Position numbers and translations under genes: made by a program. This document shows, in pieces, positions 54,246 to 61,195 of a DNA stretch of 64,000 nucleotides. The notes under the pieces are model-generated. The model ran no database searches. It was not told the origin of the DNA and saw only the letters and a list, made by a program, of their open reading frames with translations. Within the stretch, counting starts at the first letter, position 1, and the number at the start of each line of letters is the position of its first letter. The DNA is from Peribacillus simplex (GTDB lineage: Bacteria > Bacillota > Bacilli > Bacillales > DSM-1321): contig NZ_CP011008.1 of the NCBI RefSeq assembly GCF_001578185.1, forward strand, positions 2,632,001-2,696,000. Reading direction: 5' to 3'.

Positions 54246-56142
54246 GGTTATCAATCGAGTAGGAGGAGGCGCCTAGCCTCCGACCTCTCACACCACCGTA
54301 CGTACCGTTCGGTATACGGCGGTTCAGTTTAAGTCTGACGTAGTTTTGTATATCGTTCATATAGATTTACTAACCCATGATGGAGCCAATAAACATTATT
54401 AAGGGTTTTGTCTAGAATAGGACTATGCGCTATGCGCCAATAACCCTTTCTGCTATTTCCCCATTCATATGCTTTTCCAAATGGGACGCCTAATCCTTTG
54501 AGTTTCCTCACCCTCGTTCTTGGTAATTTCCATTGTTTCCATAGGCACATTCTGAGTCTTCTTCGAATCCATGAATCTAAATTCTTCAATACGTTCGGAG
54601 TATCAATGAGGGCGAAATACCCCATCCAACCTCTAAGGTATTGCTTTAACTTATTTATTCGGAGTTCCATGGGTATCGGTAATTTTCTCGAGGTCATTTC
54701 CCTGATTCGTTTCTTTACCCTCTTCACTGTTTGTTTAGCCAGTAGAACCTTCGGGTTCTTCTTTGACTTCGTGAAACTAAAACCGAGAAACGTTCTGTTC
54801 CAAGGGCGATCATACTTCGACTTCTCGTAGTTGACCTTTAGCTTCAGTTTATTTTCAATGAAGCTTGAGATATTTCCCATTGCACGTTTGGCGGCTTTTC
54901 GTGTCTTCACAAAGATAGTATTGTCATCCGCATACCTTACAAATCGAAGATTGCGTTTCTCTAGTTCTTTATCTAAATCGTCTAACATGATATTAGATAA
55001 TAAAGGACTTAACGGACCTCCTTCCGGAGTTCCCTCCTCACTTTTATGAAAAAGTCCGCCTATCATAATGCCTGCTTGAAGGAACTTACGAATCAGTTTA
55101 AGAACTCGTTTATCTTCAATTTTCCGCTCTAACATTCCCATGAGCTTGTCATGATTCACTTTATCGAAGAACTTCTCCAAATCCATATCCACTACCCATT
55201 TATAACATTCGGTTATATAGGACTTTGCCTTTCGAACCGCCTGGTGCCCTTGTTTGTTAGGGGCGAAATCCATAGCTATTCTCCGAAAAGGTTGAGTCAT
55301 ATATCTTGGTCAATATTTGGGCAATGGCTTGTTGAATGAAACGGTCTAGAACGGTTGGAATACCCAAAAGCCGAACTCCGCCGTTTGGTTTCGGGATTTC
55401 GATACGACGGACGGGCTTCGGTTGATAGGTACCCTGTAAAAGGGCAGTTTTCATGTTGTACCATTCGGTTACGAGGTGCGGTCTCAGGTTTTGGACCCGC
55501 ATTCCATCTACACCATGGCTTCCCTTATTTCTTTCTACACGCTTCAATGCCTGTATTAAGTTTTCCCTCTCTAGTATCTGTTCCATTAACATCGTTGATA
55601 TCCTTTCTACGTGGATAAATGGTCTATTTGTGCCTTTATCTGCTCCACCCTTTTGAAGTTCCCCGTGTATTCACCACTTCTTCCTTCAAATAAGTTCCGT
55701 TAGGAATTGTTTGCTTCTTCACAGATAACGAACGCCTAGTATTCATCCTCCTTAATCTGTTCGGTCCTTCCTTGTCTTCTCGAGGAGACAAGTACTATGA
55801 CCTCTGCTGACTTCTGATGATTCAGCTGTCCATCACTGGAAAGGTTACCAAGTGTACTTGGCTGTCATCAGACCTCCCCGGGTAAGAGTGCAATCTTTCC
55901 CTCCATCTATCTGCTTCATTTACTCTGTACCACCTTCGGCAGTAAGGACTTTGTTTTGTTTCGCAAACTCATCCAATGATACCTAGCCTTATATGAAGTT
56001 CGTGTTCCTCAGACCGGAGGTTTGCCGCTTGCTTCCTTCAGATTCCACGTCACCGTGGACACCCTTGCATTAAGCTAACCACTACTACTGCCTTCATGAT
56101 TCGGGACTTCCACCCTATAGATTGCACCCATGCCGGGCGCAC
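54245..56142 (-). mobile_element. Group II intron, about 1.9 kb, inserted antisense in the recombinase
   Basis: The minus strand begins GTGCGCCCGGCATGGGTGCA at 56142, a typical group II 5' end. It carries about 550 bases of structured RNA, the maturase frame, and a 3' domain with GTACGTACGGTGGTGTGAGA and GGAGGCTAGGCGCCTCCTCC ending near 54245. The 3' boundary is approximate. Because it reads opposite to the recombinase, it cannot splice out of that gene's mRNA, so the recombinase is destroyed. Confidence 0.85.
54329..55592 (-). pseudogene. ltrA: Group II intron reverse transcriptase/maturase, frameshifted
   Basis: The two frames join at SYGFRP/NKQGHQAV near 55268, where one extra T interrupts the conserved GFRPN motif. 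Together they give about 420 residues: RT0-RT7 with catalytic FVRYADDNTIF, PLSPLLSNIMLDDLD, and the maturase X domain (LKQYLRGWMGYF, GYWRIAHSPILDKTLNN). No HNH endonuclease domain is present. With the frameshift the intron should be immobile unless helped in trans. Confidence 0.9.
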
Positions 56143-58929: not shown

Positions 58930-59352
58930 AGTTTAGTTACACAAGGAGTTATAATATATTAGATTCAGAAGCTTGTAAAAGTGGTGATGAAAAGTGTATA
59001 TAAAGTAACGAGTATATGTAAAGACGCGAAGCTTTGAACAAAGTTGCGATGTTTATAAAAATGATGCGATGCTTTATCTCTTTGATTGAAGAATTTTAAA
59101 TAGTTTGGATATAGGATTAGGTGAAGATGATTCACATATTGCATTCCGTATAAAAGAATGTTATTTTAAAAATAGAATTATGAGAGGACTGATGGTTGAA
59201 TAATGATTAACTAATCTATATTTTAATTTGAAATTAATATTCAAACTAAAAAAATAGGGTTGGTCTATCCATTTTTATAAATCAGTTCATACTTTATTTA
59301 TCATGATTCCAATGATTAATAAGGACTTATTTAGTATGAGTGAAAGACTAAT
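58930..59352. other. Intergenic with a coding scrap
   Basis: The plus strand near 59105-59203 reads LDIGLGEDDSHIAFRIKECY then FKNRIMRGLMVE and a stop, probably the tail of a lost gene. The ABC-F promoter should lie between about 59200 and 59350 but is not clear. Confidence 0.3.
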
Positions 59353-59384
59353 CCTTCCAATTATAAATTGGGAGGTATTTTTTA
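59353..59384 (+). terminator. Intrinsic terminator in the ABC-F leader
   Basis: CCTTCCAATT, loop ATA, AATTGGGAGG (10 bp, one G-U), then TATTTTTTA. It lies 69 bases before a leader ORF, so it may act as an attenuator for the ABC-F transcript. It could instead end a lost upstream gene. Confidence 0.75.
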
Positions 59385-59452
59385 TTCTCTAATAGATAAG
59401 TCGATATTTATTAATCCGTAACTTTAACCCAACAAACAAAGGAGAGAGAAAA

Positions 59453-59506
59453 ATGAGTAATTCAGACACTATTGTTACACATGTAATGCTCTATATAAGT
59501 CGTTAG
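59453..59506 (+). CDS. Leader peptide (uORF1) of the ABC-F gene
   Basis: The 17-codon ORF MSNSDTIVTHVMLYISR has GGAGAGAG 5-6 bases before its ATG. Its last codons form one arm (ATATAAGT, 59493-59500) of alternative hairpins with downstream leader sequence. Such peptides upstream of ribosome-protection genes sense antibiotic-stalled ribosomes, as with erm and vga/vmlR-type leaders. Stalling here would free or mask downstream signals. Confidence 0.65.
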   Translation: MSNSDTIVTHVMLYISR

Positions 59507-59564
59507 TATCCATCAAACTTATATGGAGGAATTAATAAATTGATGGATATTCCGACTTTATATG
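59493..59564 (+). promoter_or_regulatory. Competing hairpins in the ABC-F leader
   Basis: TATCCATCAA (59507-59516) pairs exactly with TTGATGGATA (59540-59549). ATATAAGT (59493-59500) can pair with ACTTATAT (59517-59524) or, as CTATATAAGTCG, with CGACTTTATATG (59553-59564). These pairings exclude one another and cover uORF1's end and uORF2's start. Confidence 0.65.
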
Positions 59565-59605
59565 AAAAGTGTCGATATATAAAGGAGGAATTATTATGTC
59601 AATGA
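59543..59605 (+). CDS. Possible second upstream ORF (uORF2), overlapping the ABC-F start
   Basis: ATG at 59543 (within the 10-bp stem) opens a 20-codon frame starting MDIPTLYEKC and ending at a TGA (59603-59605) seven bases beyond the ABC-F ATG, which would couple translation of the two. GGAGGA at 59525-59530 lies 12 bases upstream, longer than ideal. Confidence 0.4.
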   Translation: MDIPTLYEKCRYIKEELLCQ

Positions 59606-61074
59606 TAAAAGTTCAAGACTTAACTTTTTCATATCCAGGTAGCTTTGATAATATTTTTGAAGGTGTAAACTTTCAAATGGATACGGATTGGAAACTAGGA
59701 TTTATCGGTAGAAACGGACGAGGAAAAACGACATTCTTTAATTTATTATTAGGGAATTATGAGTATAGTGGGAAAATCACTTCTTCGGTAGAATTTAATT
59801 ATTTCCCTTACCCAGTTTCAGATAAGAACAAGTTTACTCATGAAATCCTTGAAGAAATTTGTCCCCAAGCAGAAGATTGGGAATTTCTTCGTGAAATATC
59901 CTATTTAAATGTTGATGCCGAGGTCATGTACCGACCATTTAAAACATTATCAAATGGAGAACAAACAAAGGTATTGCTTGCTGCACTGTTTTTGAATGAG
60001 GGTCAATTTCTATTAATTGATGAGCCAACAAATCATCTAGATACTGATGCACGAAAGATGGTCTCTGATTATCTAAGGAAGAAAAAAGGATTTATTTTAA
60101 TTTCACATGACAGAATCTTTTTAGACGGGTGCGTTGACCATATCTTATCTATAAATAGAGCAAACATTGAAGTCCAAAGTGGTAACTTTTCTTCTTGGAA
60201 GTTAAATTTTGATAGACAGCAGGAACACGAAGAAGCAACAAATGAGCGTCTACAAAAAGACATAGGGAGATTAAAACAGTCTTCAAAGCGTTCAGAAGCT
60301 TGGTCTCATCAAGTGGAGGCCACTAAAAACGGGACAAGGAATTCTGGTTCCAAGTTGGACAAAGGTTTTGTAGGGCATAAAGCGGCCAAGATGATGAAGA
60401 GATCGAAGAATCTTGAATCAAGGAAACAAAAAGCTATTGAAGAAAAGTCAAAATTACTAAAAAATGTAGAGAAAACTGATTCGTTAAAATTAGAACAATT
60501 GAAATTCCAGTCAAATGAATTGGTTGTTTTGGCTGATGTGTCTGTTCAGTATGATGACCAAATAGTGAATGAGCCAATTAGCTTTATAATTGAACAAGGT
60601 GACCGAATTGTACTTGATGGAAAGAATGGAAGTGGGAAAAGTAGTATCCTAAAACTAATTCTAGGACATCCGATTCAGCATACAGGCTCAGTTAATTTAG
60701 GCTCAGGACTCATCATTTCCTATGTCCAACAAGATACTTCTCATTTGAAAGGATCGTTATCAGATTTTATTGAAGAGCAAGAGATTGATGAGACGTTATT
60801 TAAATCTATCCTACGTAAGATGGATTTTGACCGAATTCAATTTGAGAAAGAAATATCTCATTATTCTGGTGGACAAAAGAAAAAGCTGCTTATCGCTAAA
60901 AGTTTATGTGAAAAAGCTCATTTATATATATGGGATGAACCATTAAATTTTATTGATATTTATTCGCGTATGCAGATTGAAGAGCTTATTCAACAATTTA
61001 ATCCCACAATGGTTATTGTTGAGCATGATCAGGCATTTCAACAAACAGTTGCAACAAAAACTATATCTATGTAG
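59596..61074 (+). CDS. ABC-F ribosome-protection protein, Lsa-type
   Basis: The 492-residue protein has two ABC domains and no transmembrane part. NBD1 has GRNGRGKTT, LSNGEQTKVLLAALFLNEGQ and LLIDEPTNHLDTDARK. An interdomain linker of about 90 residues is rich in Lys/Arg/Glu (about 200-300). NBD2 has GKNGSGKSS, YSGGQKKKLLIAKSL and IWDEPLNFID. Linker length and motifs (MDTDWKLGFIGRNGRGKTT) match the Lsa group, which displaces lincosamides, streptogramin A and pleuromutilins. AAAGGAGGAATTATT sets the ATG at 59596. The elaborate leader suggests antibiotic-induced expression. Confidence 0.92.
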   Translation: MSMIKVQDLTFSYPGSFDNIFEGVNFQMDTDWKLGFIGRNGRGKTTFFNLLLGNYEYSGKITSSVEFNYFPYPVSDKNKFTHEILEEICPQAEDWEFLREISYLNVDAEVMYRPFKTLSNGEQTKVLLAALFLNEGQFLLIDEPTNHLDTDARKMVSDYLRKKKGFILISHDRIFLDGCVDHILSINRANIEVQSGNFSSWKLNFDRQQEHEEATNERLQKDIGRLKQSSKRSEAWSHQVEATKNGTRNSGSKLDKGFVGHKAAKMMKRSKNLESRKQKAIEEKSKLLKNVEKTDSLKLEQLKFQSNELVVLADVSVQYDDQIVNEPISFIIEQGDRIVLDGKNGSGKSSILKLILGHPIQHTGSVNLGSGLIISYVQQDTSHLKGSLSDFIEEQEIDETLFKSILRKMDFDRIQFEKEISHYSGGQKKKLLIAKSLCEKAHLYIWDEPLNFIDIYSRMQIEELIQQFNPTMVIVEHDQAFQQTVATKTISM

Positions 61075-61151: not shown

Positions 61152-61195
61152 AAGGCCTAATTCCTCTACAATAAGTTGAGAATTAGGCTTTTTAA
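61152..61195 (+). terminator. ABC-F terminator
   Basis: AAGGCCTAATTC pairs with GAATTAGGCTT followed by TTTT. Confidence 0.85.

Follow-up and report, generated by a model that had tools for sequence, protein, structure and literature searches.

Organization of the lsa leader

The locus analyzed here raises the question of how the leader in front of an lsa gene controls that gene, and how many switches the leader contains. It lies in a stretch of 64,000 nucleotides of Peribacillus simplex DNA, which is referred to below as the window. The leader looks like two ribosome-stalling switches arranged in tandem, which are predicted to act first on completion of the RNA and then on its translation. 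The first switch (module 1) is already known in kind; the second (the VTH switch, module 2) and its conserved peptide are apparently undescribed. The gene and the element at the upstream edge of its leader are as follows:

59139–59167, + strand: TTGCAT-17-TATTTT, promoter-like element; TG precedes the second hexamer (alignment, by eye)
59596–61074, + strand: lsa-family ABC-F ribosomal protection gene, 492 codons (NF000167 match; Lsa(A), 7nhk)

In a preliminary description of this DNA, the gene had been called an Lsa-type ABC-F gene, in agreement with the score of its product against NCBIfam NF000167 ABCF_Lsa_all (814.4 bits; the cut-off is 750). The closest solved chain is Lsa(A) (7nhk, E 2.6e-126), to which the protein is clearly less than 80% identical, as read from the alignment. 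According to the available text of PMC10201436, Lsa proteins provide resistance to lincosamides, pleuromutilins and streptogramin A. The leader had been placed at 59353–59605; its true start lies ∼180 nt upstream of this segment, and the region from ∼59139 to 59352 had been overlooked. The promoter-like element reads TTGTAT-17-TAATAT in many relatives (alignment, by eye) and is absent from the output of the consensus promoter scan.

Module 1 resembles the vmlR transcription attenuator

The upstream part of the leader contains the following features:

59170–59384, + strand: module 1, vmlR-type transcription attenuator, Rfam RF02452 ncr1575 (covariance model, fold)
59203–59214, + strand: uORF(MIN), ATG ATT AAC TAA, predicted sensor of module 1 (alignment, vmlR tripeptide)
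59256–59266, + strand: switch segment of module 1 (complementarity read from the sequence; conserved in the alignment)
59353–59384, + strand: intrinsic terminator of module 1 (terminator scan; end of the RF02452 match)

The RF02452 match scores 108.1 bits (the gathering score is 60) and covers model positions 1–212 of 212. The same segment folds with a z of −3.35, and none of 200 shuffled sequences folds as well. The MIN tripeptide uORF, which starts 393 nt upstream of lsa, sits inside the first stem. Its Shine-Dalgarno (SD) sequence is poor in the window (GGTTGA; most relatives have GGATGGAC or a close form), with GAGAGG ∼15 nt upstream. The switch segment is complementary to ∼59209–59219, forming an anti-antiterminator, or to ∼59345–59355, forming an antiterminator; the anti-antiterminator and the terminator appear in the computed fold, and the antiterminator is predicted from complementarity. 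An alignment of 35 leaders shows conservation of the mutually exclusive anti-antiterminator, antiterminator and terminator segments and of a MIN-type uORF. A TTNTTT-type motif is present as TTATTT at 59294–59299. The second and third residues of MIN are not fixed, because MNN, MMN, MKN, MVN, MIQ (locus L044) and MIY (locus L112) occur as variants among the lsa leaders.

The terminator reported earlier is readily seen, with a stem at 59353–59375 followed by a T-rich tail (there are 3 terminator-like sites in 2.7 kb vs 1.0 expected). It had been listed together with a 17-codon ORF that is described below. This ORF lies downstream of the terminator, so a ribosome on it is unable to control termination there, and the terminator belongs to a separate upstream attenuator with MIN as the sensor. 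The idea of attenuation by ribosome stalling at both the transcription and translation levels fits the anatomy in kind, but the anatomy had been given incompletely or wrongly.

Module 1 shares with the B. subtilis vmlR leader the MIN tripeptide, the order of anti-antiterminator, antiterminator and terminator, and the TTNTTT-type motif, and it differs in that it precedes an Lsa (ARE3) gene and not a VmlR (ARE2) gene (PMC9226507, available text). By analogy, RF02452 is probably the vmlR leader itself. The attenuation mechanism of vmlR was measured experimentally (Takada et al. 2022, PMC9226507, available text). By homology, ribosomes would complete the MIN uORF when no drug is present, the anti-antiterminator would form and polymerase would stop at 59353–59384; a ribosome stalled on MIN would let the antiterminator form, resulting in read-through.

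A BLAST search of the genome of the window for a second leader of this kind returned the window copy alone, and two other ABC-F loci that were examined (L146 and L147) are without module 1. Rfam matches to mir-2943 and sR36 in the leader were far below the gathering scores and were discarded.

Module 2 encodes a conserved leader peptide

The downstream part of the leader begins with the second uORF:

59453–59506, + strand: module 2 leader peptide MSNSDTIVTHVMLYISR, 17-codon uORF (ORF list, relatives, alignment)

This ORF had been recognized earlier together with its own SD, and both are borne out: the ATG is at 59453, the stop codon at 59504–59506 and an SD-like AAAGGAG at 59438–59444. The codons for V8-T9-H10 occupy 59474–59482. 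The relatives of the Lsa protein that were compared are the best 80 of 561 in the genome_contigs collection (loci L032–L111). A VTH-type uORF is present in 58 of these 80 loci, comprising 57 ATG-started ORFs with [VIL]TH and one with VVH (L065). It is missing in 22, namely L042, L075, L078, L079 and L085, which are the five such cases among the 63 loci L032–L094, and L095–L111; a similar ORF in L107 has VTY in place of VTH.

The VTH peptide spans Bacilli to Clostridia. In many Bacilli it reads MSxSDTIVTHxxLRISR, other forms resemble MSLELDVTHxLLRISR or MSTDTVVTHxLLRISR, and the Clostridia have peptides similar to MNSAEQIVTHDxLRIVSV. Two plasmids carry it as well, one staphylococcal (L112, MVLELDVTH..., 5′ of lsa(B)) and one from Priestia (L113, 5′ of lsa). 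After identical rows (L040 and L090–L094) were merged, there were 56 distinct leaders; L078 was a false match and was dropped, so the codon table comprises 55.

The core of the peptide is [D/E]xx(V/I)TH. Across the 55 leaders, the residue before Thr is Val in 53 and Ile in two, Thr itself is kept in 54 (Val in one), His is present in all 55, and the residue four positions before Thr (T-4) is always acidic (Asp in 36, Glu in 19). The two residues after His and most of the N-terminus are variable. Thr is encoded by ACG in 30 leaders and by ACA in 24, His by CAT in 54 and CAC in one, and the acidic residue by GAC in 30, GAA in 17, GAT in six and GAG in two. The leader thus encodes a conserved peptide that has its own SD and has undergone synonymous changes, as in translational attenuators. 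Because the core residues remain constant while their codons vary, the pattern in these sequences points to selection on the peptide.

Pairing and covariation in module 2

The RNA of module 2 contains the following elements:

59489–59500, + strand: arm A, within the uORF; partner of B (pair counts)
59497–59516, + strand: arm A′ (AAGTCG and TATCCATCAA), antisequestor with 59540–59558 (pair counts; Clostridia folds)
59517–59528, + strand: arm B, pairs with A (pair counts; inverted-repeat search)
59540–59558, + strand: partner of A′ (TTGATGGATA and CGACTT) (pair counts, folds, inverted-repeat search)
59543–59605, + strand: 20-codon second ORF, seen in the window but not conserved; not taken to be functional
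59556–59563, + strand: arm C of the SD-sequestering stem; overlap with the partner of A′ (pair counts)
59577–59588, + strand: arm D (59577–59584) and lsa SD AAAGGAGG (59581–59588) (pair counts)

In an unsupervised inverted-repeat search, the pairings of module 2 were the first three of 8 pairs listed. The exact 10-bp pair 59507–59516/59540–59549 that had been noticed earlier forms the core of a 24-nt inverted repeat (59493–59516/59540–59563, 71% complementary). The competing pairings proposed with it were also recovered: 59489–59500 pairs with 59517–59528 (12 nt, 92% complementary), and 59549–59563 pairs with 59577–59591 (15 nt, 87%) and covers the lsa SD.

Base pairs were counted in 44 Bacilli leaders; the 8 Clostridia, L078, and L043, L047 and L051, which have no C and D, were left out. 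A:B was paired in 98.5% of 528 cells, the SD-sequestering stem C:D in 99.4% of 352 cells and A′:C in 90.2% of 697 cells. When the partner was shifted by 1–3 columns, these values were at most 61.5%, 69.3% and 48.3%, respectively, in a control that favors any structure read from the sequence. The C:D stem contained 8 double-change cells, a number reached in none of 500 shuffles; these are cells and not events, as they come from one column pair with two kinds of change (G-C to U-A in seven leaders and to A-U in one, the window). Covariation is weak for A:B (2 double-change cells; its paired percentage was reached in 48 of 500 shuffles) and modest for A′:C within Bacilli (20 of 500 shuffles reached the double-change cells and 262 of 500 the pair types). 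In Clostridia, the A′:C hairpin forms in all 8 distinct leaders when the fold is computed from a point within A to one ahead of D, and the letters of its upper stem are different (GGTGA/TCACC vs TATCCATC/GATGGATA). We regard this hairpin, predicted from other letters, as the best evidence that the alternative pairing is functional.

The segment 59435–59607 folds with a z of −2.17, and 4 of 200 shuffled sequences fold as well; conservation and covariation are much stronger evidence against chance than the fold z. The preliminary description had proposed that the leaders of orthologs be compared for both the peptide and the stems, and had named the lack of both as a refutation. The comparison does not refute its reading. 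The peptide is found in the 58 of the best 80 of 561 relatives, and the stems are kept in the leaders that were aligned or folded. Leaders L043, L047 and L051 are short, and in the absence of C and D their B arm is the lsa SD, which makes them a simpler natural form of the switch.

The 20-codon second ORF, which had been proposed as a further uORF overlapping the start of lsa, is indeed present in the window but is not conserved in relatives. An ORF from the homologous ATG reaches the lsa start in 13 of 52 leaders, not all in one frame, and 8 of 52 (the Clostridia) have no ATG there. This candidate was therefore rejected as a regulatory uORF.

Computed accessibility of the lsa Shine-Dalgarno sequence

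The energy required to open the lsa SD was computed with a ribosome placed on each codon of the uORF, with its footprint set at −15 to +16 relative to the P-site codon. A toeprint in the available text of PMC9226507 is consistent with the +16 edge. The summary comprises 52 leaders, including the window (L043, L047, L051 and L078 were left out). The minimum was at V, T or H for 43 of them and elsewhere for nine. The median opening energy was 4.06 kcal/mol for V, 2.34 for T and 2.55 for H, with values of 5.3–6.4 for codons −7 to −2 from Thr and 5.4–6.4 kcal/mol for the four codons past His. The median was 4.67 kcal/mol without a ribosome and 6.24 kcal/mol with a ribosome at the start codon. Controls were run on 16 of the 52 leaders. 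With footprint edges of +12, +14, +16 and +18, the dip stayed between V and the codon after H, with a shift of at most about one codon; it was absent in 64 shuffled copies, whose SD was less hidden at the outset (1.75 vs 5.91). The conserved VTH core and the dip in SD opening coincide, so the peptide and the RNA switch point to the same three codons. Across relatives, an alternative stem thus frees the SD in silico when the uORF is stalled, and in the window alone this effect is relative to other codons and not to the state with no ribosome.

The window is not the cleanest case of the VTH switch. Its SD opens at 0.98 kcal/mol without a ribosome, and its centroid fold already contains A′:C. With a ribosome, opening costs 3.6–4.1 kcal/mol at codons 1–7, 1.10 at V8, 2.24 at T9, 2.66 at H10 and 5.3–7.4 kcal/mol at codons 11–17; a V8 stall is therefore lower than codons 1–7 and 11–17 and not lower than no ribosome. 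Since the SD is cheap to open when unconstrained, the off state would have to depend on the order in which the RNA folds or on ribosomes moving along the uORF. Among the Clostridia, five of 8 leaders have an SD that opens at low cost in any case (0.3–2.0 kcal/mol). In L043, L047 and L051, the opening energy falls from 9.6–11.2 to 0.1–0.8 kcal/mol once the P site is at codon 9.

Distribution and upstream neighbors of the two modules

Rfam searches covered 60 of the 82 loci L032–L113, and an nhmmer profile of module 1 was applied to all 82; the profile was built from 35 leaders, which match it by construction. Among the 58 VTH loci in the best 80 of 561 relatives, nhmmer detected a module-1 homolog upstream in 34. 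The Rfam run covered 49 of the 58 loci, and 29 of the 34 homologs were above the gathering score, the weaker ones being L057, L067–L069 and L071. No module-1 homolog was found by nhmmer in the other 24 VTH loci, two of which (L032 and L082) end at a contig edge. Module 1 occurs without the VTH uORF in L075, L079 and L099.

A cfr gene (TIGR04432, 612 and 622 bits; the cut-off is 550) precedes lsa in L058 and L064; its end is ∼175 nt away from lsa, with module 2 in the space between the two genes. A cfr-type methyltransferase gene located just 5′ of the VTH module was observed in L058, L064 and L072 (the Cfr family was confirmed for L058 and L064 only), which suggests cfr-lsa operons in these loci. 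Thirteen Clostridia-type loci have the VTH uORF (L081–L084 and L086–L094), and 10 of them (L083 and L086–L094) contain a different upstream uORF, MINFSC(K/R). The three kinds of upstream neighbor, i.e. the MIN attenuator, the MINFSCK-type attenuator and the cfr gene, suggest that VTH-type leaders are modular.

An M(I/F/R)(N/H/R)(F/I)SC(K/R) uORF lies upstream in 20 of the best 80 of 561 relatives, in their Clostridia-type part (L083, L085–L095, L097, L098, L101, L103, L104, L107, L109 and L110). A TTGCAAGAAAGT-like segment follows the MINFSCK-type uORF in 18 of these 20, and a CTTTCTTGC-type terminator arm is present in 11 of 20. Judged from these elements, the MINFSCK-type leader is apparently a separate transcription attenuator. 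The staphylococcal plasmid locus L112 has a second ncr1575 copy at 1218–1435, downstream of cfr, in which the MIN start codon is ATA; the VTH pattern occurs just once in this locus, before lsa(B). In L042, the lsa gene of which is 93% identical to that of the window, a stretch resembling the Cfr C-terminus (cf. L058) is found where the VTH uORF would be expected.

The exact VTH pattern was also scanned for in overlapping sets of 43, 397 and 398 genomes. In the order scan (397 genomes), the core was found in 18 genomes and was a uORF before lsa in 13 of them, with the backward control matching in 8. All 13 pattern-found uORFs precede lsa; other target genes may exist, since the exact pattern misses variants. 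The order-scan matches L116, L117, L118, L130 and L131 have no lsa start downstream and were taken as chance. The phylum scan (398 genomes) gave six matching genomes, one being that of the window and five taken as chance, and the control gave five. No match to the pattern was found in phage records, and viral contigs contained 8 matches, one with an lsa gene.

Within the genus of the window, the exact VTH core occurs in two of 36 genomes. Of 11 loci examined in other genomes of the genus, 8 have a leader-like MIN module before an ABC-F gene whose beginning is unlike that of lsa. Two such genes belong to the general ribosomal-protection ABC-F family, with no Lsa match at the threshold used, and we take these non-lsa genes to be VmlR-like. 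The small number of VTH cores and the MIN modules before non-lsa ABC-F genes fit acquisition of lsa by transfer in this genus.

Proposed mechanism and alternatives

We consider it likely that lsa in the window is controlled by two ribosome-stalling attenuators in series. This prediction builds on anatomy, conservation, covariation and codon-specific computed SD accessibility, which are observed across relatives. Both uORFs would be translated, drugs would induce ribosome stalling on both, and the two steps would act together. In the second step, module 2 (59435–59595) would function as a translational attenuator. With no stall inside the 17-codon uORF, A:B and C:D would form and the lsa SD would be hidden. 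With the P site of a stalled ribosome at V8-T9-H10, the 5′ part of A would be covered and A:B would be unable to form; the freed A′ would then capture the segment just before and overlapping C, C:D would be lost and lsa would be translated. The second step would need arrest after about nine residues, because arrest at the start codon gives no help in the model.

A stricter version of this scheme, which we offer tentatively, is a two-input gate in which lsa is made only if the MIN and VTH stalls both occur. MIN would register drugs that act at the start codon by blocking formation of the first peptide bonds, and [D/E]xx(V/I)TH would be a new arrest motif that permits about nine codons of translation and then a stop. 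When His is in the P site, Thr is the penultimate residue. At this position, phenicols and oxazolidinones prefer Ala and, to a lesser degree, Ser or Thr (PMC8987054, available text), and the Thr before the P-site residue would fit drugs with such a preference; the resistance known for Lsa proteins, however, is to lincosamides, pleuromutilins and streptogramin A. PMC13410324 was consulted for a context preference of lincosamides or pleuromutilins, and its text contains neither word.

Several other explanations were considered. The one that survives best, although we judge it unlikely, is that module 1 alone regulates lsa through antitermination, with module 2 as a passive SD-masking hairpin and the 17-codon ORF as no sensor at all. 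The SD hairpin of vmlR, SL-4, is sensorless in this way, and its mutation left near-wild-type induction (PMC9226507, available text); L075, L079 and L099 also carry module 1 without the VTH uORF. However, the uORF residues are constant across Bacilli and Clostridia while the codons change, 24 of 58 VTH loci are without a detected module-1 homolog (L032 and L082 at a contig end), and stall-position folding has a sharp codon optimum.

Somewhat less probable still is a two-arm translational attenuator, in which the uORF ribosome just frees B, the GGAG(G) of B is the entry site and A′:C is incidental. Against such an arrangement, D contains the lsa SD in 52 leaders, at 40–62 nt downstream of B, ORFs from an ATG after B reach lsa in just 13 of these 52, and Clostridia keep A′:C with different letters. 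It would suit L043, L047 and L051, which have neither C nor D and use the GGAGG of B as the SD of the gene, with opening at codon 9; B of the window likewise reads GGAGG.

It is improbable that the VTH uORF senses slow translation in general, caused by uncharged Thr or His tRNA or damaged ribosomes, and no particular drug. Induction of vmlR by ribosome assembly defects (PMC9226507, available text) and the invariant His in 55 of 55 leaders would agree with this, but the conserved Val (or Ile) and acidic T-4 residue would be needless for a tRNA sensor, and the controlled gene is lsa in 13 of 13 pattern-found uORFs. A chance ORF with inverted repeats in an AT-rich spacer, to which the fold z of just −2.17 for module 2 might point, is hardly credible in view of the covariation and of the peptide in 58 of the best 80 of 561 relatives.

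Comparison of the proposed serial attenuators with known systems

In attenuators of the ErmC/ErmB type, stalling on a leader peptide remodels RNA stems and frees the SD of the resistance gene. Module 2 is also predicted to free an SD by leader-peptide stalling; the ErmCL peptide is presumably unrelated to that of module 2. Two differences are that the ribosome in module 2 must cover just part of the first arm, the remainder of which pairs downstream, and that module 2 stands behind a transcription attenuator. The translational attenuation scheme of ermC is also given in PMC10219788 (available text). The vmlR leader has one uORF and the SL-4 hairpin, and the leader in the window has a second uORF and switch instead (PMC9226507, available text).

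The leaders of C. difficile cplR, VmlR2 and E. faecalis LsaA similarly contain a short uORF before an ABC-F gene (PMC10201436, available text), and the terminator hairpin of cplR also masks the SD (Obana et al. 2023, PMC10201436, available text). The uORFs of these leaders differ in having 3–4 codons, MR[I/M], MK[L/Q] and MAGN, and no 16–17 codon peptide was found for them in the available text of PMC10201436. In the uORF4u work of that source, as far as its text is available, MAGN is listed for LsaA, and the search was limited to proteins above an 80% identity cut-off and to 300 nt upstream. The protein encoded in the window falls outside this cut-off, because it is clearly less than 80% identical to Lsa(A), and the start of its MIN uORF, at 393 nt, lies beyond the 300 nt. 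The sequence ATGGCNGGNAAY, representing the LsaA-type MAGN uORF, has 0 matches in the whole window. The MsrD leader resembles module 2 in placing an elongation-arrest peptide (MsrDL, MYLIFM) before an ABC-F gene and differs in using transcription attenuation and macrolide sensing (PMC10314930, available text). In the accessible portion of the open-access literature, no description was found of the VTH peptide, of a comparable leader peptide for Lsa, or of a MIN attenuator combined with a second peptide switch; subscription papers on lsa(B) plasmids may describe such a peptide.

The VTH sequence is a compact candidate arrest motif that is common to Bacilli and Clostridia, and the predicted arrest codons make the context-dependent action of ribosome-targeting drugs directly testable. 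The staphylococcal plasmid with the VTH leader before lsa(B) (L112) also carries cfr, so the leader bears on inducible resistance to lincosamides, pleuromutilins and streptogramin A in clinical settings.

Two further elements of the window were observed outside the leader. On the 3′ side of lsa, at 61155–61194, a GCCTAATTC/GAATTAGGC stem followed by TTTTT is a likely terminator; it is missing from the terminator scan list, probably owing to its long loop. On the − strand, 54254–56059 contains a group II intron (RF00029, RF01998 and RF02001), and ∼1.9 kb of this region is 97.5–97.7% identical to introns on Peribacillus plasmids.
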